DNA from: Myxacorys californica WJT36-NPBG1
Lineage (GTDB): Bacteria > Cyanobacteriota > Cyanobacteriia > Leptolyngbyales > Leptolyngbyaceae
Direction of reading: 5' to 3'
Assembly: GCA_019359315.1 (NCBI GenBank)
Contig: JAHHHO010000022.1
Coordinates: 1-64,000 of the forward strand
Length of the DNA stretch: 64,000 nucleotides
Shown: in pieces, positions 30,577-44,158 of the stretch
How the letters are laid out: each line of letters starts with the position of its first letter
How positions within the stretch are numbered: position 1 is the first letter of the stretch
Program-made: the position numbers and the translations under genes
The notes under the pieces: generated by a model
Database searches by the model: none
What the model saw: only the letters and a program-made list of their open reading frames with translations
What the model was told of the DNA's origin: nothing

Positions 30577-31452
30577 ATGGCAGAAAATAATTCTTCAACC
30601 TCAACTCTTTCGTTTGAGGTACTCCTGGAGTACCTCAAACGAAAGCATCATTTTGATTTTACAGGCTATAAACGTTCTAGCTTAGAGCGGCGGATACAGC
30701 ACCGAATGGGCCAGCTTGGTATCGAGAGCTACAGCGAGTATCTGAGCTATTTAGAGGCCACTGAGGAAGAATTTGCACATCTGTTTAGCACGATTGAAAT
30801 TAACTACACCTACTTCTTCCGCGATCGCGACACGTGGGACTATCTTTGTCAGGACATCATTCCTCGCATTCAGGCGGCTAAGCCACCGGATCAACCGATT
30901 CGGGTGTGGAGTGCGGGTTGTGCGTCTGGGGAAGAAACATATACCTTGGCGATCGTTCTGGCTGAAGCGCTGGGGATCGAACAGTTCAACCAACGAGTCC
31001 ACATTTTTGCTACAGACATAGACGATGATGCACTCCGGAAAGCTCGTCAAAGCAGCTATCTGGAGCACGAAATGACCAGAATTCCTCCCCATCTTCTGAA
31101 TCAGTATTTTGAACGGATTAACGATCGCTATCAGTTTCGTAAAGACTTACGCGCTGCGATCTCCTTTCATCGGCACAATCTGATTCAAAATGCGCCTATG
31201 TCGAAGATTGATTTACTTGTGTGTCGCAATACGCTAATTTACTTCGATCTCGATGCACAGACAAAAGCACTGGTTCGCTTTCACTTTAGTCTCGAAGACC
31301 GTGGCTTTCTCTTCTTGGGCAAAGCAGAAATGGTACCGGGCGAATTGGACCTCTTCAGGACGATCAATGTCAATCATCATGTCTACACCAAACTACCAAA
31401 GGAATATCTGAGTCCACGTCTGTTCGTCCAAGCGTTTAAGCGACCTCGATGA
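30577..31452 (+). CDS. cheR: CheR-type protein-glutamate methyltransferase
   Basis: 291 residues. N-terminal CheR helical domain (FDFTGYKRSSLERRIQHRM, TYFFRDRDTWDYL) then the SAM-binding domain: VWSAGCASGEETYTLAIVLA, IFATDIDDDALRKAR and LLVCRNTLIYFD. It would methylate glutamates of a receptor-like protein using S-adenosylmethionine. It lacks any PAS or tetratricopeptide extension. It is convergent with the CheR-PAS gene, whose methyltransferase half is closely similar. No receptor, CheA or CheW gene is in the window, so the target is unknown. Confidence 0.92.
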   Translation: MAENNSSTSTLSFEVLLEYLKRKHHFDFTGYKRSSLERRIQHRMGQLGIESYSEYLSYLEATEEEFAHLFSTIEINYTYFFRDRDTWDYLCQDIIPRIQAAKPPDQPIRVWSAGCASGEETYTLAIVLAEALGIEQFNQRVHIFATDIDDDALRKARQSSYLEHEMTRIPPHLLNQYFERINDRYQFRKDLRAAISFHRHNLIQNAPMSKIDLLVCRNTLIYFDLDAQTKALVRFHFSLEDRGFLFLGKAEMVPGELDLFRTINVNHHVYTKLPKEYLSPRLFVQAFKRPR

Positions 31453-31574
31453 GTTGCGGTTAGCGCAGAGCGCAACTTCAGAGAAATTAGCTCTGCCAAG
31501 CTCCAAGGGGGTTTGCTGCCCGGAGTCCTTCGGATCGCTCTAAAATTTCTAGCAGTGAAGCAGGTTCGGCACCC
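31453..31574. repeat. Dispersed repeat in the convergent cheR gap
   Basis: The gap between the two convergent methyltransferase genes holds TTAGCGCAGAGCGCAACT (about 31458), GCCAAGCTCCAAGGGGG and CGGATCGCTCTAAAA. On the other strand, parts match 59117-59155 (AGTTGCGCTCTGCGCTAA) and 9736-9770. It is therefore a copy of a dispersed element that sits after stop codons and may serve as a terminator. Confidence 0.6.
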
Positions 31575-33443
31575 TCAAACGCCGTTGCCACCTTCTTCGC
31601 GCTCTTCCATCAGCAAAATCGCTCCTTGCGGTTGGAGTTCCGCCTCCATCAGCGAACTACAACTCACAGAGCAGTGAATCGTTCTACCGCGACGATTGAT
31701 CGCCTCCAACGTCACCTTAAGTGCTTCGGGTGTCCGCTGCGCTAAGCATTCTCGAATCGTTTCTAGCAATTGAGCCACCGGAAGCCCAATGTCAAGATTG
31801 AGAAGATTCTGTCCCACTGCCTCTTCGGTGCGCAGTCCCCATAAATCTTCGGCTTTATGGTTCCAGATTTGTACTTGCAAATTACGATCGACGACAACCA
31901 CTCCATCGCGCAAACTTGCCAAAATCGACTCCAGAAACGTATTGGCCTGATTGATTGATTTGCTCCGTCGCTGAAGTTCATCGTTTAACGTCTGCAATTC
32001 TTCATTGGTTGACTGCAATTCCTCGTTCATCGTTTCCAATTCTTCGTTACTCGATTGCAGTTCTTCGTTTGTGGTTTCTAATTCTTCGTTACTTGACTGC
32101 AATTCTTCGTTTGTCGTTTCTAACTCTTCATTGGCAGACTGCAATTCCTCATAGGCCATTTCTAGCTCTTGATTCGCGTGTTCGAGTTCTTCTCGCAGTC
32201 GCTTGTAGCAAGTGACATCAATAAACGTGATGCTGATGCCCAAAATTCGACTTAACGGATCAAACAGCGGCGAAACTTGCACATCAAGGTAAATGGTTTC
32301 ACCTTGAGCAGTTTGATAAAGTGCGTCATAAACATTAACAGTTCGCCGCTGCTGATAGACCTGTTCTACGCACGATCGCAGTTCTACCGGGCGGTAAGAC
32401 AGTTCTAAATCTTGCAACGGACGAGCGAGATCACGGGTAGATAAGTTAAACAGGTTTCTTGCCCGTTCGTTTGCCAATGCCAGTGCCCCGTTCGCATCGA
32501 GCACTAAGCGAGCCAAAGTACCCGAATCAAACGCCGCTTCTCTCAGGCGGATCTGATGCGAGGGGCGCTCTACCACGTTATTGCCGTTTGTTTTGGAGAT
32601 GACTGACAAGTGATCGCGCAGATTCAGCCTTGGCAATCTCGTAAAGATGCGGCACTTTAAATCAATCACCGCAAACGTGCTACCGTGCGATAGCAGCGTT
32701 TCGGCTTTACCGAGAAATAGAAACCCTTCATCGCGTAGCGCAAAATGAAAGTGGTTGACAATTCTGGCTTGCGTTTCTGCGTTGAAATACATTAACGCAT
32801 TGCGGCAGATTAACAAATCGAGTCTAGAAATTGGCGCATCTTGAATTAAGTCATGACGACCGAAAATAATCGACCGCCGCAAATCTTTACGAAAGCTATA
32901 TTCACCGTCTGACTGCTCGAAATACAGCGCTAATTGTTCATCCGATAGGTCTTTTAACTTGTCAGGCGAGTACATCCCCAGCCGCGCTTGAGCCAACGCT
33001 TCTTCATCAACATCGGTCGCATAAATTTTGACGCGATCGCGAAATTCTTCAACGCCGATCACATCAGCGATCGCCATCGCAGTGGTGTAGGCTTCCTCTC
33101 CAGACGCGCAGCCTGCACTCCAGATGCGAATCTGTTCGTTGGGTTCTCGACGCGACATAATGCGAGGAATCACTTCGCTAGAGAGATAGTCCCATGCAGC
33201 GCGATCACGAAAAAACGCAGTGACATTAATTAATAAAGTGTTGAATAAAATATTAAATTCTTCTGGGTGGACTTCTAAATAGTCAAGATACTCTCCATAA
33301 CTTTCGATATTGATGGCGTGCATTCGCTTAAGCACACGACGTGTTATGGTAGAGCGCTTGTAGCCTGTAAAGTCAAACCCTCGGCTCTGTCTTATATACT
33401 CTAAAAGTGTTTCAAACTCAGAATGGCTATTGGCGTTAGTCAT
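31575..33443 (-). CDS. CheR-PAS hybrid with long coiled coil
   Basis: 622 residues. Residues 1-280 are a CheR methyltransferase (GFDFTGYKRSTITRRVLKRM, IWSAGCASGEEAYTTAM, LLICRNALMYF). A first PAS domain at about 300-410 (LVLDANGALALANERARN) leads to a coiled coil at about 415-490 made of seven-residue units of the form EELxxxN, and a second PAS domain (DGVVVVDRNLQVQIWNHKAE) closes the protein. No histidine kinase domain follows. Known CheB-CheR-PAS hybrids have this order with CheB in front; here CheB is a separate gene 490 bp upstream on the same strand. Role in sensing or methylation-based signalling is inferred. Confidence 0.9.
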   Translation of the reverse strand: MTNANSHSEFETLLEYIRQSRGFDFTGYKRSTITRRVLKRMHAINIESYGEYLDYLEVHPEEFNILFNTLLINVTAFFRDRAAWDYLSSEVIPRIMSRREPNEQIRIWSAGCASGEEAYTTAMAIADVIGVEEFRDRVKIYATDVDEEALAQARLGMYSPDKLKDLSDEQLALYFEQSDGEYSFRKDLRRSIIFGRHDLIQDAPISRLDLLICRNALMYFNAETQARIVNHFHFALRDEGFLFLGKAETLLSHGSTFAVIDLKCRIFTRLPRLNLRDHLSVISKTNGNNVVERPSHQIRLREAAFDSGTLARLVLDANGALALANERARNLFNLSTRDLARPLQDLELSYRPVELRSCVEQVYQQRRTVNVYDALYQTAQGETIYLDVQVSPLFDPLSRILGISITFIDVTCYKRLREELEHANQELEMAYEELQSANEELETTNEELQSSNEELETTNEELQSSNEELETMNEELQSTNEELQTLNDELQRRSKSINQANTFLESILASLRDGVVVVDRNLQVQIWNHKAEDLWGLRTEEAVGQNLLNLDIGLPVAQLLETIRECLAQRTPEALKVTLEAINRRGRTIHCSVSCSSLMEAELQPQGAILLMEEREEGGNGV

Positions 33444-33936
33444 GGAATGAAGGAGTCAAGGATCTAGCTGTTCTGGCAAAAAGTAAAGATACCAGATTAA
33501 AGGTCGGGTTGCTAGCGCAGAAAAACCCACCTACCTTGGGTTTATCTCTTCTTGGGTTTATCTCTAAGTGAATTGTCTGGAACTTACGCAAAATCTCGTA
33601 GGCAACGGATTACACGTGACTGCGGAAGAGGCTTCGCCTGCAAATTGATCAGACGCATACAGCAATGCTTCCCAACGAGGAATGAAGTAAGACAGTTCAA
33701 GATCTCCGATCGCGCCGAGAAATCAGAGATTTTTGTACAACGAGGCATGCAATTAATTCTGAGCGTTGCTAAACGTGGGGATAAATCGCCCAGCGATTTG
33801 AAATCTTATTTGCCCCCTACATTTCCCAACTCTAGGAAAACTAGATCAGCCCAAAATCCCTCAGAATTGGGGGTTAGGGGACGGATTCATCTCGTAATTC
33901 TGCAACACCAAATTCTGTCTCCCTACTATAAGATAA
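33444..33936. other. Spacer with decayed repeat sequence
   Basis: 493 bp with no supportable gene. GGAACTTACGCAAAATC near 33581 resembles the AGGACTTACG ends of the element at 40838-41345. ATTCTGCAACACCAA at about 33897-33911 matches one arm of the hairpin at 26618-26665. The stretch looks like a pile of old non-autonomous elements. Confidence 0.5.
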
Positions 33937-34965
33937 TCATTCTTTCATTATTGATTCCTCACTCTTCACCTGCTGCATTTTCTCACCTTGCGTACTAATT
34001 ACTCCACGCACAACATCCGCCTGCTGCCTAGATTCCTCGGCGCGTCGGAGAAATTGCGCTTCTGAGAGCATTCGTTTTTGCTCCCGTGCCTGTTTTGCCA
34101 TTCGTTCTGCTAAAGCTGCTTTTTCTTCGAGCGCCCGCACTGCCGACCAAAGCGATGTCTCAACCAAGTCGGCTTGTTCAGACAGCAAACTATCGCTCGA
34201 ATATGCGTGTCCAGCATGACACCGATAACGAATGAGCCCATTGCTTCGCAGTTCCCACAGCACCCCGCCGCAGTCGGGACAAGTCACCATTGAAGGCGAA
34301 GTTTCAGGATGTTCGCCCTGCTCTAACTCCGCCTTGCTTTGTGCCACGAGTTCGGCTTCTTGTTCGAGGTTATTAGACATTGAATTGTCCTCTTCAACAG
34401 GATTTTGGCTCAAAACAACTAACTGAGCCGCTAAATCACTAAGCCTCAAAATAGCGTCAACCTTCACATTTTTTATTGCGCTGGACACCATTCCGTCAAA
34501 TAAGGCTTCGCTAGGATCTTGCACGATCGCAATCCCACCGTGGGCTTTGATCAGTTTCAGTCCAGCAGTGCCATCGTCTAACATTCCCGACAAAATTACT
34601 CCAATCGTTCGCGGCCCATAGGATCGCGCTGCCGATCGAAACATGGTATCAACCGCCGGACGGTGCCCATTTTCTCGCGGACCTCGATCGAGGCGAATGT
34701 GAGAATTGCCCAGCAATAAATGATAGTCAGGCGGAGCAATATAAATTCGTCCTAACTCGATCAGGTCGCCGTCATTCGCATGCATAGCAGGTAAAGTACA
34801 GCAACGGTTGAGAATCTGCGGTAGCATGCTGGTCGCATAGGACGGAAAATGCAACGTCACAAAAACTGCAACAGGCAGATCAGCAGGAAGCGCTTTGGCA
34901 AGTTGGCTCAGTGTTTCGACCCCACCCGCCGAAGCACCAACAACAATAATATTGCGCTCAAGCAT
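33937..34965 (-). CDS. CheB-type methylesterase without receiver domain, with zinc ribbon
   Basis: 342 residues. The catalytic domain begins at residue 1, so there is no phosphorylated receiver domain. The triad is visible: Ser12 in VVGASAGG, His39 in VTLHFPS, and aspartate near 130 in SGMLDDGTAGL. A C-terminal ribbon (CPDCGGVLWELR, YRCHAGHAYS) with four metal-type ligands follows at about 233-258, then a helical tail. It would remove methyl esters from glutamates of a partner. It lies upstream of the CheR-PAS gene on the same strand, as expected for a split CheB-CheR-PAS system. Confidence 0.9.
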   Translation of the reverse strand: MLERNIIVVGASAGGVETLSQLAKALPADLPVAVFVTLHFPSYATSMLPQILNRCCTLPAMHANDGDLIELGRIYIAPPDYHLLLGNSHIRLDRGPRENGHRPAVDTMFRSAARSYGPRTIGVILSGMLDDGTAGLKLIKAHGGIAIVQDPSEALFDGMVSSAIKNVKVDAILRLSDLAAQLVVLSQNPVEEDNSMSNNLEQEAELVAQSKAELEQGEHPETSPSMVTCPDCGGVLWELRSNGLIRYRCHAGHAYSSDSLLSEQADLVETSLWSAVRALEEKAALAERMAKQAREQKRMLSEAQFLRRAEESRQQADVVRGVISTQGEKMQQVKSEESIMKE

Positions 34966-35077
34966 AAAGTCTTTCGGGTTAGCAAACTGTTGATACCGAT
35001 GATTGGTATTTCAATTAGTCGGTAGTTCAATCTAGCAAGATCTGAACGATCGCTCATCCATCCTGGGGTGTCTTCTT

Positions 35078-36430
35078 TCAGGAGCCAGGGTTTTGCATCG
35101 ATACTCGGCGCGGAAGCTCGGCGCGGAAGGTGGTTCCCACCCCGACTTGACTTTCGACTGAAATCGTTCCTTGCATGAGTTCGACTAGAGCCTTAGTGAT
35201 CGACAAGCCCAGCCCCGTGCCGCCTTGAGATCGAGTATTGGTTTGATTCACTTGCCAAAATTCGCGAAAAATCTGAGAGTGATCGGCAGTATCAATGCCA
35301 ATTCCAGTATCACTCACCACGATCGCAAAGCGTCCTTCAGGCAATTCTAAGACTTCTAAAGAAACACGTCCAATATCAGTAAATTTGATGGCGTTTGAAA
35401 GCAAATTAATGACGATTTGACGCAACCGCATTGGGTCATTCACGATCGCGATGGGAGCCGACGGTACGCAAAACTGCAACTCTATCTGTTTTTGATCCGC
35501 CAAAGGACGCAGTTCCTCAACGATCGCGCTCATCAATTCGCTTACATCAACCGCTTGTAAGGTGAGTTGTAATCGGTTCGCTTGCAGTTTAGAAAAATCT
35601 AGAATGTCTTCAATTAGCATGAGCAGGTGGTGTCCGTTTTTCAGCACCCGTTCTAGCATTGTGATCTCACGAGCCTGACCCTGAGCGCGAAATTGACGCA
35701 TCAGTAAATCAGAAAATCCTAGAATTGCATTCATCGGTGTGCGTAGCTCGTGTGTGACCGTTGCCATAAACTGCTGTCTGAGGCGATCGGCTTCGATCAG
35801 TTGCACGTTTTGTAACTGTGCTTGGTGCAGTTGTTCTTCAGCATGCTTGCGCCCAGTGATATCCCGAATCAGCCACCGCAGCCCAACGGTCTGCCCGTCA
35901 TTGCGCACAGTTTCCACCGTAATTGCGGCTTCAAATAGCCTTTGCTCTCTGTTACGCAATTGCACTTCCCATTCTTGAATTCGGCTCAAGACCGGAAGCT
36001 GATTCAGAATCGCGCGAAATGCCTGACGATTTTCCTCAGGTACAAAGGTGAGGATCGGTTTGCCAATTAGATGTTTGGAGCCAACCTTTAGTAGATTTAC
36101 GGCTGCCCGATTTGCCTCGCGCACAGTGCCAAATCGATCGGTAATTAAATAGCCATCAGGGGCAAATTCAAATAGCTCCCGATAGCGTTGCCGCTCTGCC
36201 TCAATAGTTTGCTGAGCCTCTAAAATGCTGATTTGCTGTTCGCGGATTTCTTCTTGAGCAACTTGCAATTCTTCTAGCGATACATGAAGTTCCTCTAAAC
36301 AGTCCACCAAAATTTGTGATTGTTCTCCAGGCAGTTCTTTGACCGCCTGGTTCATTATTCTGGCGCGTTGGTGGACTGCCTGAATTTGCTGATCAAAGAA
36401 GCCGCTTTCAGCTTTCATTTTCATTCTCAT
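35078..36430 (-). CDS. PAS-domain sensor histidine kinase
   Basis: 450 residues, soluble. An N-terminal coiled coil (about 10-82, with ELHVSLEELQVAQEEIREQQ) leads to a PAS domain at about 85-195 (LFEFAPDGYLITDRFGTVRE). The kinase core has H box TVTHELRTPMNA with the phospho-histidine near 227, N box NLLSNAIKFT, G1 VSDTGIGID and G2 GGTGLGLSI. No receiver domain is attached and no response-regulator gene adjoins it. It is on the same strand as the CheB, CheR-PAS and PAS-CRP genes. Its first 195 residues are related to those of the PAS-CRP protein. Confidence 0.92.
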   Translation of the reverse strand: MRMKMKAESGFFDQQIQAVHQRARIMNQAVKELPGEQSQILVDCLEELHVSLEELQVAQEEIREQQISILEAQQTIEAERQRYRELFEFAPDGYLITDRFGTVREANRAAVNLLKVGSKHLIGKPILTFVPEENRQAFRAILNQLPVLSRIQEWEVQLRNREQRLFEAAITVETVRNDGQTVGLRWLIRDITGRKHAEEQLHQAQLQNVQLIEADRLRQQFMATVTHELRTPMNAILGFSDLLMRQFRAQGQAREITMLERVLKNGHHLLMLIEDILDFSKLQANRLQLTLQAVDVSELMSAIVEELRPLADQKQIELQFCVPSAPIAIVNDPMRLRQIVINLLSNAIKFTDIGRVSLEVLELPEGRFAIVVSDTGIGIDTADHSQIFREFWQVNQTNTRSQGGTGLGLSITKALVELMQGTISVESQVGVGTTFRAELPRRVSMQNPGS

Positions 36431-36783
36431 GCAAACAAAACATAGATGATTTCGTCAAGCGCATATCCATTTCAGGCAGTATAGATAAATCCTGAGTTGG
36501 CTTCTATCATTTAATATGAGCTTCCTTTTTGCATCTATGGTTGGGCAGAGAAGAGCATGTTCCAATACTCATAGTAGCAAACATTGTAAAGATTGTTTAA
36601 CTCCTAAAAATTGAACTGAAAACTTAATTTTTACGCTCACTGGTATTGTTTGATACAGCTTGAATTAGCACTTCTTGGTGCTTGGGATAGACCAGGAAAT
36701 ACCTCTCTAGTTGTTACGTTAGTTTTAGTTAATGTTTACAGAAGATTTTCTCTGCAAGATTCATTCTTATTTTGAAGAAATTC
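36431..36783. promoter_or_regulatory. Divergent spacer of the histidine kinase and DUF1830 genes
   Basis: 353 bp, AT-rich, between divergent genes. The half sites of an NtcA-type GTA-N8-TAC box were not convincingly found. TAGTTGTTACGTTAGTTTTAG near 36711 is T-rich but not a recognisable operator. No other feature was seen. Confidence 0.35.
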
Positions 36784-37041
36784 ATGACACAAACCTATTT
36801 AACTCAGGACAGTTCTGAGAGTATCTATGGCTACAAAAATAGAACTCGTCAACTCCAAATTGTGAGAATTACAAATATTCCCAATTGGTATTATGAGCGG
36901 GTTGTGTTTCCTAGCCAGTATCTTTTGTTTCATGCCCCAACTGGAGCTAAGCTTGAAATCCACGATGGCAAACCGATCACCGCAGTTGTAAAAGATACAA
37001 TCGATTGCGCTTCGCTAAAAATTTGCACCTTGAGTCGCTGA
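36784..37041 (+). CDS. DUF1830 domain protein
   Basis: 85 residues from the ATG at 36784; a TTG four codons earlier is in frame. The DUF1830 core is clear: CYVNATSQ-type start here as GYKNRTRQLQIVRITNIPNW, followed by YYERVVFPSQYLLFHAP and LEIHDG. The family is small, cyanobacterial and of unknown function. The gene is oriented against its signalling neighbours and followed by a long hairpin. It appears to be monocistronic. Confidence 0.8.
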   Translation: MTQTYLTQDSSESIYGYKNRTRQLQIVRITNIPNWYYERVVFPSQYLLFHAPTGAKLEIHDGKPITAVVKDTIDCASLKICTLSR

Positions 37042-37050
37042 ATTTAGGTT

Positions 37051-37166
37051 GGTAGTGCTGGAGACTTGTTGATCAGCTTCAATGCCCTTGTTAAAAACAA
37101 AACTTATCGTGTTTTTAACAAGGGCAATGTGATCGTTCCACACTGTTCAATCCTGGGTCTACTACC
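37051..37166. mobile_element. Small inverted-repeat element enclosing a 16-bp perfect hairpin
   Basis: The left end GGTAGTGCTGGAGAC matches the right end, on the other strand, of the element at 13006-13110, and its own right end is GGTCTACTACC (37156-37166). Inside, GCCCTTGTTAAAAACA (37084-37099) and 37110-37125 form a perfect 16-bp stem with a ten-base loop. It separates the convergent DUF1830 and PAS-CRP genes and probably ends both transcripts. Confidence 0.65.
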
Positions 37167-37190
37167 CTAATTCTTAATCTTCAAAAATTC

Positions 37191-38408
37191 TTAATCTCTT
37201 AGAATTAAATGGTTATGGGAATCGAAATAAATTTTGCCTTGCTGCTGAAGTTGTCCGAGTAGGCGGGTAATCGTTACTCGCGTCGTACAGCAAGCGCTGG
37301 CAAAATCTTGATGCGTAAGTTTTACCTTTAACCGAACTTCAGGCTTGTTCCCGGTAGAAGCGTCACCAGATGCAGGAACCGCTTCCCCAACCTCTTCTTT
37401 CAACAAGCGCAACAACTGATTAAACCGCTCTTGCGTGCGCAGATGTCCGTGCATCATCAGAAACTTTTCCGCACGCTGTAACCGTTGCATAATACGCGGG
37501 AGTAGCGCTTGGGACAGTTCCAGTGATTGAGCCATTTCTGCAACTGGAATCCCAACTAGCTCCACATCCGAAAGCGCGATCGCTTGATAGACCGATAGCG
37601 TTGTCAAACACGCTCCAAACACTTGTTCTTCGGCCACTAAGCCCACCACAATTTCTTCGCCGCATTGAGAGAGCGTGGTCAGCTTCACAATGCCTTGCTT
37701 GACGAGCCATAGGGTCTGCGGCTCAAGAGGGATCACTTCTCCTTTGCGGTAGCGATCGCAGGAAGGAAACTTTGACACATCTTGACTTGCCTGAGTTAAC
37801 GCCATCAGCGATCGCTGACGGCTGCTTAAATCTTGCACCTGCCATCGCAACAAAAGCGGTTCGTCTTGGTCGTTGCGAATCACATCGACGGTCAACCCTG
37901 CTTCAAACCAATCTTGCTGCCGCCGCTGTAACCGAACGCTCAACTGCGCCCGATTTCGCTGCCCGTTGGCTGAGCTATCTTGCTGACTAATCTGAGTCAG
38001 AATGTTACGAAATCCATTGCGATCGTCGAGGGTGACAAGACTCGATAAAGGTTTTCCGATCAGATAAAGCATATGGCGATCGAACAGGGTCACCGCTGCC
38101 CGATTCACTTCTTGAATCACTCCAGAAAGCGTCGTAATAATCAATGCATCGGGAGCAAATTCAAACAAGCTTTGATAGCGAAATCGCGCGGCATTTGCTT
38201 CGTGTTGAACAACGGTAAGAGCTTCGTTTTGGCGAGTCAATTCTTCTACAGCAACCTGCAATTCTTCTGAAGCAAGCCCCAATTCTTTTAGCGCGATCGG
38301 CAGTACATCAGCTGTTACATTTTTCGATTGTGGCGACAACTGATGCAGTCCTAAAACCTGTCCATGGATAACTTGAATCTGCTTGTTCAATAAATCCATG
38401 TCATACAT
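37191..38408 (-). CDS. PAS domain fused to a CRP/FNR-type transcription factor
   Basis: 405 residues. A coiled-coil lead (ALKELGLASEELQVAVEEL) and PAS domain at about 78-195 (LFEFAPDALIITTLSGVIQE) are followed by a CRP-like beta-barrel (about 212-300, LWLVKQGIVKLTTLSQCGEE), a dimer helix and a winged helix (about 364-400, LTHQDFASACCTTRVTITRL). The barrel lacks the FGE...RxA cyclic-nucleotide pocket; it reads VFGACLTTLSVYQAIAL. DNA binding is therefore probably controlled by the PAS sensor rather than by cAMP. The PAS half resembles that of the histidine kinase at 35078. Confidence 0.88.
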   Translation of the reverse strand: MYDMDLLNKQIQVIHGQVLGLHQLSPQSKNVTADVLPIALKELGLASEELQVAVEELTRQNEALTVVQHEANAARFRYQSLFEFAPDALIITTLSGVIQEVNRAAVTLFDRHMLYLIGKPLSSLVTLDDRNGFRNILTQISQQDSSANGQRNRAQLSVRLQRRQQDWFEAGLTVDVIRNDQDEPLLLRWQVQDLSSRQRSLMALTQASQDVSKFPSCDRYRKGEVIPLEPQTLWLVKQGIVKLTTLSQCGEEIVVGLVAEEQVFGACLTTLSVYQAIALSDVELVGIPVAEMAQSLELSQALLPRIMQRLQRAEKFLMMHGHLRTQERFNQLLRLLKEEVGEAVPASGDASTGNKPEVRLKVKLTHQDFASACCTTRVTITRLLGQLQQQGKIYFDSHNHLILRD

Positions 38409-38557
38409 GCGTTTCTCCCCCTAGCCAGATACCTAGAACTAAGCATAAAGAATTACGCTCAACTTTGCTATTGAACCAAATAGAGATTTCTTGTATTACC
38501 TGACTTGAGATTACTTTGCTTTGTCTCAAGTAAAGTAATCGTACAAAATTTTTTTAA

Positions 38558-39598
38558 TTATACAAATGTTCCTTCCTCATTTTCGATTTCAGTGCGTTTT
38601 GTCGCAAAGCCACTCAGAATAATTCCTCGAATCAATGACACTTCTTCATCCAAGCTCTTTGCATGATCCTCATATTTCAGGGCTGCCTTTTGTAAGTTGT
38701 GACCTTTCATTCGCCCTGCCATTTGGCGCGAAAACGTGACTTTTTCCTCCATCACCCGAATTGCTGACCAAAGGGCATTTTCTAGATTCTGCGTTTGCTC
38801 GGATAGGAAGGCATCCGCTGTAAATGAATGCCCGGTATGACAGCGGAACCGGAGCGGATCTTCGTCACCAATCTGCCAAATGCTCCCGTTACACTCAGGA
38901 CAGGTGTAGGTTGTTCGGGTTCCAATCGATTCAACGTTTTCCAGAAATTCCTGGGTGTTCAGTTGCTGTTCAGCAATTTTAGATTCAATTTCGATTTCTT
39001 TAGTCACTGGGTACGCTTCCTCCGGTTCTGCGGATTCAGTGGATAAACGGACGAGAAGGGCGGGAATTTCGGCAAGCGGCAGACAATGATCGACTTTGAC
39101 AAATCGCAAGGCATTCTTCACCATGCTGGGGTATTCTGCTTCTTTCGGATCTTGTACGATCGCGACCCCGCCGCGTTTCTTGATCGCTTGCAATCCTACG
39201 GTGCCATCATCGAGAAAACCCGTCAACACCGCTCCTACCACCCTAGAACCATAAGCGAGGGCGGCAGAACGAAACAGCGCATCAACGGCGGGTCTAAATC
39301 GGTTTTCTTGAGGTCCGCGCACGACCCGTACGTATCCTTGATTCACCAACAAGTGATGATCGGGCGGCGCAACATAAATTCGCCCCGGTTGAAGCTTCTC
39401 TCCGTCCTTTGGGTGAGAGGCTGGCAGAGACCCTACCTCTGTCAGAATGTCGGGGATCATACTCGCTCGATTGGGATCGAGGTGCTGAACGATCAAGATA
39501 GCAGCATTTATATCAGCAGGCAGAGCGCTAACGATCACACCGAGTGCTTTGAGTCCACCTGCTGAAGCTCCGATAACAATAATGTCGTGTCCAGGCAT
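38558..39598 (-). CDS. Second CheB-type methylesterase without receiver domain, with zinc ribbon
   Basis: 346 residues, a paralogue of the protein at 33937-34965. Triad: Ser12 in VIGASAGG, His39 in IVQHLDPN, aspartate near 131 in TGFLDDGTVGL. The C-terminal ribbon CPECNGSIWQIGDEDPLRFR, then CHTGHS, is kept. Again there is no receiver domain, so control by CheA phosphorylation is not expected. Two esterases and two methyltransferases in 9 kb suggest two parallel methylation pairs. It is followed, 150 bp on, by the PAS-CRP gene on the same strand. Confidence 0.9.
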   Translation of the reverse strand: MPGHDIIVIGASAGGLKALGVIVSALPADINAAILIVQHLDPNRASMIPDILTEVGSLPASHPKDGEKLQPGRIYVAPPDHHLLVNQGYVRVVRGPQENRFRPAVDALFRSAALAYGSRVVGAVLTGFLDDGTVGLQAIKKRGGVAIVQDPKEAEYPSMVKNALRFVKVDHCLPLAEIPALLVRLSTESAEPEEAYPVTKEIEIESKIAEQQLNTQEFLENVESIGTRTTYTCPECNGSIWQIGDEDPLRFRCHTGHSFTADAFLSEQTQNLENALWSAIRVMEEKVTFSRQMAGRMKGHNLQKAALKYEDHAKSLDEEVSLIRGIILSGFATKRTEIENEEGTFV

Positions 39599-40657: not shown

Positions 40658-40837
40658 TCAGCAGGATATAGTTTGATTCTAGCGATTGGTTTTACGATCA
40701 GGGAGCGGGAGAAATGAAGGAAATGCTTGGATGTTGTTTTGTCCACTGCCTGTCCAGACTTGAAGCTAAACGTCAGTAGAAACCAGCTTCATACCCTAGA
40801 TAACGTCAATGGATGACCAACTTAAATACGTAGGTAT

Positions 40838-41345
40838 AGGACTTACGTAAATCATTACAGATGTTTCAGTGCAGCCGTAGGTCTTTACAAACAGAGTGCC
40901 TGTGGTAAGGAGGTTGCTTCTGGCGCAAGGAAGGTTGCTTTCGACGGAAGGAGGGTTGCTTCTGGCGCAAGGAAGGTTGCTTTCGACGGAAGGAGGGTTG
41001 CTTCTGGCGCAAGGAAGGTTGCTTTCGACGGAAGGAAGGTTGCTTCTGGCGCAAGGAAGGTTGCTTTCGACGGAAGGAAGGTTGCTTCTGGTGTAAGGAA
41101 AGTTGCTTCCCAACGCAAGGAAGGTTGCTTCTAGTTTAAGGAAGGTTGCTTCTGGTGTAAGGAAGGTTGCTTCCCAACGCAAGGAAGGTTGCTTCTAGTT
41201 TAAGGAAGGTTGCTTTCGACGGAAGGAAGGCTGCTTCTGCCGTAACGAACCTTGCTTCTAGCGTAAGGAATATTGCTTCTGTGATGAAGTCTAGGTTCGT
41301 GTCGTTATAAGGTCAGTGTTTTGATGTCACCAGTGCGTAAGTCCT
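40838..41345. repeat. 21-bp minisatellite inside a 10-bp inverted repeat
   Basis: AGGACTTACG (40838-40847) and its exact complement CGTAAGTCCT (41336-41345) enclose about 17 tandem units at 40913-41271. Units are 21 bp (two are 22), begin GTTGCTT and end AAGGAAG or AAGGAGG. Two unit types alternate in the left half (CTGGCGC and TCGACGG variants), giving a 42-bp period. Several frames on both strands stay open because the period is a multiple of three; no ribosome site supports translation. Best seen as a non-autonomous element that acquired a tandem array. Confidence 0.85.
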
Positions 41346-43566: not shown

Positions 43567-44158
43567 AACTGAGAAATAAACTGTAGCACTGTAAGCTTTC
43601 TCCTTTGCTTACAGGAGTAATACCAAGTTAAACAAGATCTGCTAGGAATGAGGTCAACTGCCTTCAGGGTGTCGGATACTCATTCTGATCGCAGGACGAC
43701 ACTCGATGGGTCAATCCTCAACATCAATCCTCAACAATAGTGACTCAATAGCCTCACTTGACGAGCCAATGGCACAAACTGACTAGGGAAGATACTGAAT
43801 TGACGGGTCAATGGACTGCATTGGTTAGGGAAGATACTGAATCAATCGACTAGGAGAGATACTGAATCGACGCGTCGATGGCACGAACCGACTAGGGAAG
43901 ATACTGAATCGAGGGATGGAGCGATTGAACGCACAGGACGATTAGCGTTGCAGAGCTTCCCAAGAAGTGCTTCCCTACTCTTGCTGTCCCTGTTGCGAGA
44001 GATTTTTTAGGGCATTTGCCGCAACGATTGATTTGGTATGAGTTGACTGCAATACCTAAAATCCAGCAAAGCTGCGTTATTTAGAACCGCCGAGAATTAA
44101 AGAAGTCAGTGCTGACCCCTTTCGTTTATAGTGGGTAGCTGACTCTTTGAGAACATCC
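43567..44158. other. Gene-free divergent spacer holding the 42-bp array
   Basis: 592 bp between the divergent rarA and acyltransferase genes. It contains the repeat array described separately, a CTCAACATCAATCCTCAAC tandem phrase just before it (about 43718-43737), and promoters that I could not pinpoint. No gene was supported. Confidence 0.55.
43758..43908. repeat. 42-bp tandem array with a covarying dyad
   Basis: Full units lie at 43758-43799, 43800-43841 and 43867-43908, with a 25-bp partial unit at 43842-43866. Each ends AGGGAAGATACTGAA (AGGAGAG in the partial one). Each full unit opens with a dyad: TTGACGAGCCAA, TTGACGGGTCAA and TCGACGCGTCGA. In the last, both arms changed together (T-A to C-G), so the symmetry is preserved. 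No coding sense was found. Confidence 0.85.

Follow-up and report, generated by a model that had tools for sequence, protein, structure and literature searches.

Six genes between positions 30577 and 39598 of contig JAHHHO010000022.1 of the cyanobacterium Myxacorys californica WJT36-NPBG1 encode chemotaxis-type methylation enzymes next to a PAS histidine kinase and a PAS-CRP regulator. We analyzed the first 64,000 nucleotides of this contig (the window; the contig is numbered 126 in our analysis). The locus belongs, in split form, to the CheB-CheR-coil-PAS-histidine kinase fusion family, all of whose parts (CheB, CheR, a coil with paired glutamates, PAS and kinase) are present. We estimate a probability of about 50% that it represents a split form of a widespread sensory module independent of chemoreceptors, in which CheR and CheB reversibly esterify the coil and the coil stands in for the chemoreceptor and adjusts the kinase. 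The parts of this module would be a receiver-less CheB, a CheR-PAS-coil-PAS protein (CheR-PAS) and a histidine kinase with an N-terminal coil and PAS domain (N-coil-PAS); here they are joined by the PAS-CRP regulator, a second CheB (CheB2, the first being CheB1) and an extra CheR (CheR1). Pfam searches recovered all six genes, among them two CheRs of which one carries PAS domains, the PAS kinase and the PAS-CRP regulator, at the coordinates and with the domains given in an original prediction made from the DNA letters.

CheB1 and CheB2 each have PF01339 as their sole Pfam match, starting at residue 7 (E values 2e-57 and 2e-55), and both hold the motif CPxCxG...RCHxGH of a C-terminal zinc ribbon. 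Pfam found no receiver domain in either protein, in agreement with the earlier statement that receiver phosphorylation cannot control them. S12, H39 and D131 (CheB1 numbering), which we take to be the equivalents of the catalytic Ser/His/Asp with the roles they have in Salmonella CheB, do not vary across the 52 zinc-ribbon CheBs aligned, and neither do the likely zinc ligands of the ribbon (C229, C232, C249 and H253; 52/52). In a structure model of CheB1 (mean predicted local distance difference test score, pLDDT, 91.8), the catalytic domain matches the solved CheB 3sft with Z 31.9 and a root-mean-square deviation of 1.3 over 184 residues at 34% identity. Downstream of this domain the model has ribbon strands (residues ~223-256) and two long helices (residues 257-295 and 299-341); the matches returned by a PDB search for the ribbon and long helices were dominated by the catalytic domain.

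The two CheRs match PF01739 with E values of 2e-54 and 2e-53. R79, D146, R214, N215 and Y219, presumably conserved core residues of CheR, are invariant in an alignment of 28 CheR-PAS proteins (28/28). The possibility that the CheB and CheR enzymes are degenerate was rejected on the invariance of their active-site residues. No tetratricopeptide repeat (TPR) was found among the five Pfam matches of CheR1 or among the 25 best of the 50 matches of CheR-PAS. By sequence comparison CheR1 and the CheR domain of CheR-PAS are paralogues: the best matches of CheR1 outside the host genome, among 42 genomes of the host family, are the CheR domains of CheR-PAS proteins (50-57%). CheB1 and CheB2 are 40% identical, whereas CheB2 has relatives at 71-79%, so the two form separate lineages and CheB2 is no fresh duplicate.

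The original prediction did not mention the Glu-pair coil inside CheR-PAS, which we regard as a better candidate substrate than the kinase or the CRP regulator. It consists in the window protein of seven heptads of the form N-E-E-L-[EQ]-[ST]-[ST] and lies on a single modeled helix (residues 411-508) whose block pLDDT is 90-97 up to residue 490 and lower beyond. We aligned the window CheR-PAS with 34 homologues from the family (n = 8), other cyanobacteria (n = 17) and other phyla (n = 9), leaving out one CheR-coil protein of more than 820 aa (L086). The coil is the best-conserved part of the protein, with mean identities in these three groups of 93, 90 and 81%, compared with 66, 60 and 53% for the CheR domain, 60, 53 and 37% for the first PAS and 62, 54 and 43% for the second PAS. 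Linker coils usually rank low in conservation within a protein, which makes this conservation unusual. Both the Glu pair and the Ser/Thr next to it rank with the best-conserved positions. Where the residue is the same (E, L, N, Q, S and T only), codon identity is 0.50-0.57 within the coil and 0.39-0.48 outside it in this gene; the synonymous codons of the coil have thus drifted, which indicates selection on the protein and led us to reject recent repeat copying as the source of the conservation.

When Leu is assigned to core position d and Asn to position a, an assignment of our own, the Glu pair falls at b and c, which places the coil in the heptad register of the methylation helices of methyl-accepting chemotaxis proteins (MCPs), with the second Glu at c. 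Methylation of MCPs at heptad position c is described in PMC6829392. We searched for the MCP methylation consensus in a strict form, [ASTG][ASTG]xx[EQ][EQ]xx[ASTG][ASTG], and in a relaxed form, adopted only after the coil had been seen, with position -5 free. The relaxed consensus is present in all 27 split CheR-coil proteins, and runs of at least two matches in 7-step occur in 26 of these 27 and in 23 of 23 fused CheR-coil proteins. Such runs are absent from the controls (0/83 zinc-ribbon CheBs, 0/27 other kinases, 0/445 other genes). Single relaxed matches were found in 3/83 zinc-ribbon CheBs, 3/27 other kinases and 3 of the 5 MCPs of the host.

To place the window in a wider setting, species genomes were scanned with a CheB alignment and the best 80 zinc-ribbon CheB loci were taken; all locus counts below refer to these, and the census was made on all six-frame open reading frames (ORFs) with custom profiles, not Pfam. 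The loci come from cyanobacteria (including Phormidesmis and Leptolyngbya), Ktedonobacteria, other Chloroflexota, Acidobacteriota, Planctomycetota, Nitrospira, Bacteroidota, Azospirillum, Mesorhizobium, Nannocystis and others. This neighborhood survey, proposed with the original prediction, supports a CheR-linked and MCP-free setting: CheR is encoded in 54 loci, a CheB-CheR fusion in 27 and the coil in 51, while the MCP and CheW profiles matched in none and the CheA profile in one. Among the 51 loci of at least 15 kb the counts are CheR 41, MCP 0, CheW 0 and CheA 1. As a control, the MCP profile recovered the MCP in 8/8 regions with an MCP found by Pfam; the CheW profile matched in 5/8 of the same regions, whose true number holding CheW was not independently counted. 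An N-coil-PAS match occurs in 24 loci, some of which may be ordinary PAS proteins (the one in L125 looks so), as the profile includes the PAS domain, and an extra ribbon-less CheB in 20, a count that takes in a second CheB domain of the same chain.

The coil profile and CheR coincided in 23 fused and 27 split proteins. Of the 27 split CheR-coil loci, 23 have a same-strand CheB within 3 kb and 17 have an N-coil-PAS gene placed likewise on that strand and within that distance. The fusions include the CheB-CheR-coil-PAS-histidine kinase form and, in Brasilonema (L086, 918 aa), a CheR-PAS-coil joined to an N-coil-PAS kinase. Other arrangements were also seen. In L105, L112 and L126 two methylesterase domains share a chain of 541-565 aa, in the order CheB-zinc ribbon-CheB (with Pfam for L105), and two Azospirillum loci have a zinc-ribbon CheB match in a long ORF (1115 aa from ~6.7 kb in L133; 1034 aa from ~6.9 kb in L137) with a second zinc-ribbon CheB adjoining, and these ORFs are possibly larger fusions.

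We examined 28 non-cyanobacterial carriers, hand-picked from the best 80 loci and not random, with genome completeness not given, for MCPs encoded anywhere in the genome. The MCP signaling domain is absent in 12 of them (Fibrisoma, two Larkinella, Pedobacter, a Spirosomataceae metagenome-assembled genome [MAG], Chitinophaga, Hufsiella, Flavisolibacter, Dyadobacter, Fibrivirga, an Anaerolineae MAG and Mesorhizobium; L127 and L106 are the MAGs). By their organism names, we take 10 of the 12 to be Bacteroidota. CheR is present in all 12, and none has a CheW-domain match, a result that argues against a standard CheA as well (PF02895 was not searched there). If these genomes are complete, the enzymes in them cannot serve MCPs. 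The independence from MCPs encoded elsewhere that had been proposed is supported to this extent: related sets exist in genomes without MCP or CheW domain, so that service to MCPs is not required.

The core of the locus recurs in the host family, in which we surveyed 42 genomes, reading gene distances and the two-by-two table by hand. The zinc-ribbon tail was found in 14/42 genomes and CheR-PAS orthologues in 16/42. CheB1, CheR-PAS and the N-coil kinase are clustered in six relatives (L050-L053, L056, L057). In L054 CheB and CheR-PAS are together with the kinase ~3.4 kb off, in L058 they are together with a PAS-CRP gene ~2 kb off, and in L055, of CheB1 type, CheB is alone in the stretch and the CheR-PAS of the same genome lies ~11 kb away. 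All 10 family genomes that have a CheB1-type zinc-ribbon CheB also have CheR-PAS, as do 6 of the 32 others (Fisher p 5e-6, ignoring kinship). For any zinc-ribbon CheB, the table reads 10 genomes with both, 6 with CheR-PAS only, 4 with CheB only and 22 with neither (p 0.003). CheR-PAS has an N-coil-PAS match no more than 5 kb away in 14 of the 16 genomes.

Six family genomes have CheR-PAS and no zinc-ribbon CheB. The N-coil kinase adjoins CheR-PAS in five of these, four of which have a plain ribbon-less CheB of 203-211 aa with the pair; in the sixth (L154), CheR-PAS is alone on a 4.1-kb contig. Adjoining module genes overlap by 4 bp in L149, L151, L152 and L153. A CheR-coil-PAS protein beside an N-coil-PAS kinase, mostly with a ribbon-less CheB, looks like the minimal form of the module. 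The earlier view that the proteins of the window form one set stands for CheB1, CheR-PAS and the kinase, which recur jointly in relatives. It does not extend to CheB2 and CheR1, which are linked to the core by position only: among six CheB2-type relatives (L044-L049) none adjoins CheR-PAS, and four have a CheB-CheR-PAS-histidine kinase fusion in the same stretch.

The kinase keeps what we take to be the H, N and G boxes in an alignment. Aligned with kinases, the PAS-CRP regulator has an N-terminal coil-PAS in common with it, the coil carrying paired Glu (EEL); a match of the regulator to NCBIfam PtrA is below cut-off. A third N-coil-PAS kinase match of the host genome (L156:6453-7811) has no CheB or CheR match within its 14-kb stretch.

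We propose that the PAS domains flanking the coil would sense a cytosolic signal and that the paired coil glutamates (heptad positions a-b-c-d = N-E-E-L) would be reversibly methyl-esterified by CheR and CheB. The altered charge would change how the coil packs and how it pairs with the N-terminal EEL coils of the kinase and the CRP regulator, and the methylation state would in this way set the output of the kinase and of transcription. Having no receiver, CheB may instead use its zinc ribbon and long helices as a docking or regulatory domain. Because CheB, CheR, coil and kinase are in one chain in the fused relatives, it is plausible that the kinase is affected directly. A broader and more tentative proposal, to which we give somewhat less than even odds, is that these loci represent a class of chemoreceptor-free methylation signaling in several phyla, in which the near-invariant, leucine-zipper-like coil on CheR acts as a multi-site methyl acceptor, takes over from the MCP as the memory of adaptation, and has a direct tuning effect on ordinary PAS histidine kinases and on regulators of the CRP type.

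Several observations weigh against coil methylation within a module of this kind. The strict MCP consensus was found in 0/27 split CheR-coil proteins and 4/23 fusions, and never in a 7-step run. As the relaxation was chosen post hoc, the motif result is a lead and no proof; single relaxed matches also occur in 45/445 other genes, and a relaxed 7-step run in only 1 of the 5 MCPs of the host itself. Coils with EE heptads are common in signaling linkers. The CheR-PAS model is a monomer with a predicted template modeling score of 0.41 and carries no information on contact between CheR and coil. CheR is missing from 26/80 zinc-ribbon CheB loci, including 10/51 of at least 15 kb, and four family genomes have a zinc-ribbon CheB without CheR-PAS. 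N-coil-PAS matches occur in 16/16 family genomes with CheR-PAS and also in 13/26 without it, so that kinases of this type are not confined to the module, and PAS-CRP is rare in related loci. The 12 MCP-free carriers mostly have the fused form (n = 9); only L106, a MAG, has the split form, and L109 and L127 lack CheR in the stretch.

The coil might instead be a docking surface for partners or a dimer surface and no substrate, with CheR and CheB acting on another protein or a small carboxylate and several pairing partners keeping the coil conserved. The lack of the strict consensus fits this explanation, as does the conservation of Asn, Leu and the Gln/Glu after Leu, beyond the needs of methylation alone, and the kinase and CRP regulator have a common EEL coil of their own. 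Against it, the highly conserved paired Glu and flanking Ser/Thr stand next to a methyltransferase domain and in MCP register, and we found no other candidate substrate common to the loci. We consider a coil that only docks or dimerizes rather unlikely. The substrates named in the original prediction, the kinase and the PAS-CRP regulator themselves, have a common conserved N-terminal coil with paired Glu, and their genes adjoin those of the enzymes. In the window neither has the MCP consensus, strict or relaxed, and among 28 N-coil-PAS proteins none has it in a 7-step run (0/28), with single matches in one (strict) and two (relaxed); the CRP regulator moreover occurs in few loci. We regard methylation of the two proteins as very unlikely.

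Service to MCPs encoded elsewhere in the same genome, with CheB and CheR as adaptation enzymes acting in trans, has to be judged by the chemotaxis genes of the host (genome of 5.97 Mb, 99.98% complete), which total 4 CheR, 3 CheB, 5 MCP and 10 CheW-domain matches. Contig 125 has a canonical cluster of cheR, receiver-bearing cheB, MCP, cheW and cheA. The five MCPs are on five contigs, and only that on contig 125 has a cheR/cheB pair beside it. The enzymes of the module could also modify these five, a point in favor of service in trans and against coil methylation, as is the presence of MCPs in 16/28 of the chosen carriers. Conversely, 12/28 carriers have neither MCP nor CheW domain, the best 80 loci have no MCP nearby, and the recurring partner is a PAS kinase. 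We regard such service as distinctly unlikely. The description of the system as lacking CheA, CheW and receptors accordingly holds for the neighborhood, in which the MCP, CheW and CheA profiles match no window ORF, and fails for the genome. The fourth CheR of the host (276 aa; L064:3855-8368, contig 40) sits immediately downstream of a kinase of 1224 aa that carries three receiver matches, in a stretch without a CheB match.

Features of the methylation locus in the window (positions are those of the window)
Feature	Position	Strand	Basis
CheR1, stand-alone CheR methyltransferase, 291 aa	30577..31452	+	PF03705 + PF01739
CheR-PAS, order CheR, PAS_10, long coil, PAS; 622 aa	31575..33443	-	Pfam; 28-sequence alignment
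Glu-pair coil of CheR-PAS, aa 428-490, NEEL[EQ][ST][ST] heptads; candidate methyl acceptor	31974..32162	-	
CheB1, receiver-less zinc-ribbon CheB, 342 aa	33937..34965	-	PF01339 only
PAS histidine kinase, 450 aa, N-terminal EEL coil ~36206-36301	35078..36430	-	Pfam PAS, HisKA, HATPase_c
PAS-CRP regulator, 405 aa, coil ~38199-38294	37191..38408	-	Pfam PAS, cNMP_binding, HTH_Crp_2
CheB2, second receiver-less zinc-ribbon CheB, 346 aa	38558..39598	-	PF01339 only

On the minus strand the genes follow the order CheB2, PAS-CRP, kinase, CheB1, CheR-PAS, with CheR1 convergent on the plus strand; the intergenic gaps, from CheB2 to CheR1, are 149, 760, 112, 493 and 122 bp. Some relatives keep a small plain CheB gene between CheB1 and CheR-PAS, and a remnant of it was found neither in the 493-bp gap nor in seven other gaps (best E 0.36). 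A scan for promoters and terminators gave fewer sites than shuffled sequences, and we therefore base no operon claim on it. Rfam had no match in the window at gathering score. A reading of the locus as a defense system was rejected, as a PADLOC scan of the window gave weak matches only, mostly to the coil. Within CheR1, toward the 5′ end of its coding sequence and 30 nt past the start codon, a perfect 19-bp inverted repeat with a 1-nt spacer (30607-30645) might form an mRNA hairpin (not folded).

The locus is flanked on one side by PhyH-like and GH43-like genes and on the other by an ORF that Pfam does not match and a RarA-type ATPase. The interval from the module to the RarA-type gene holds a 21/42-bp tandem array (40907-41281, 17.8 copies of 21 bp), from which a repetitive ORF (40796-41182) arises. 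Further arrays are at 281-603 (123-bp period) and 43758-43912 (overlapping tandem rows of 21, 42 and 67 bp).

Chemoreceptors are the setting in which methylation by CheR and CheB is known, where it provides the memory of chemotaxis. If the module functions in the proposed way, methylation-based adaptation would be a portable add-on for ordinary two-component kinases in bacteria without chemoreceptors, and chemistry annotated as 'chemotaxis' in genomes would be reassigned; the coil offers a single short testable substrate. The window enzymes have in common with the canonical CheR and CheB of the MCP-CheA-CheW pathway the catalytic domains with intact active-site residues, but CheB has no receiver, the cluster has no MCP, CheW or CheA, and the family occurs in MCP-free genomes (mostly as fused-form relatives). 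The CheB of Campylobacter jejuni, we believe, is also receiver-less and is part of an ordinary MCP pathway, without a zinc ribbon. Pathways of the alternative cellular function (ACF) type likewise have a CheR with an extra domain and an output other than flagella; PMC3447774 describes such pathways with CheR-TPR fusions (FrzF of Myxococcus). Unlike these, the window CheR has PAS-coil-PAS in place of TPR, and its cluster has no chemoreceptor or CheA.

In the literature searched, with subscription journals mostly outside it, we found no description of a zinc-ribbon CheB, of the split module or of the coil as methyl acceptor, and no tested function for CheB-CheR(-PAS-histidine kinase) fusions. 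A 'cheBR fusion' is counted among Geobacter chemotaxis genes in a table footnote of PMC8396549. The CheB-CheR(-PAS-histidine kinase) fusions are the closest known relatives in layout, having, in the loci analyzed here, the same domains in the same order (receiver-less CheB, CheR, coil, PAS and often kinase), whereas the window has separate genes, zinc-ribbon CheBs and an added PAS-CRP regulator. These fusions are already known as sequences, and the coil as acceptor would, if true, be the new part.

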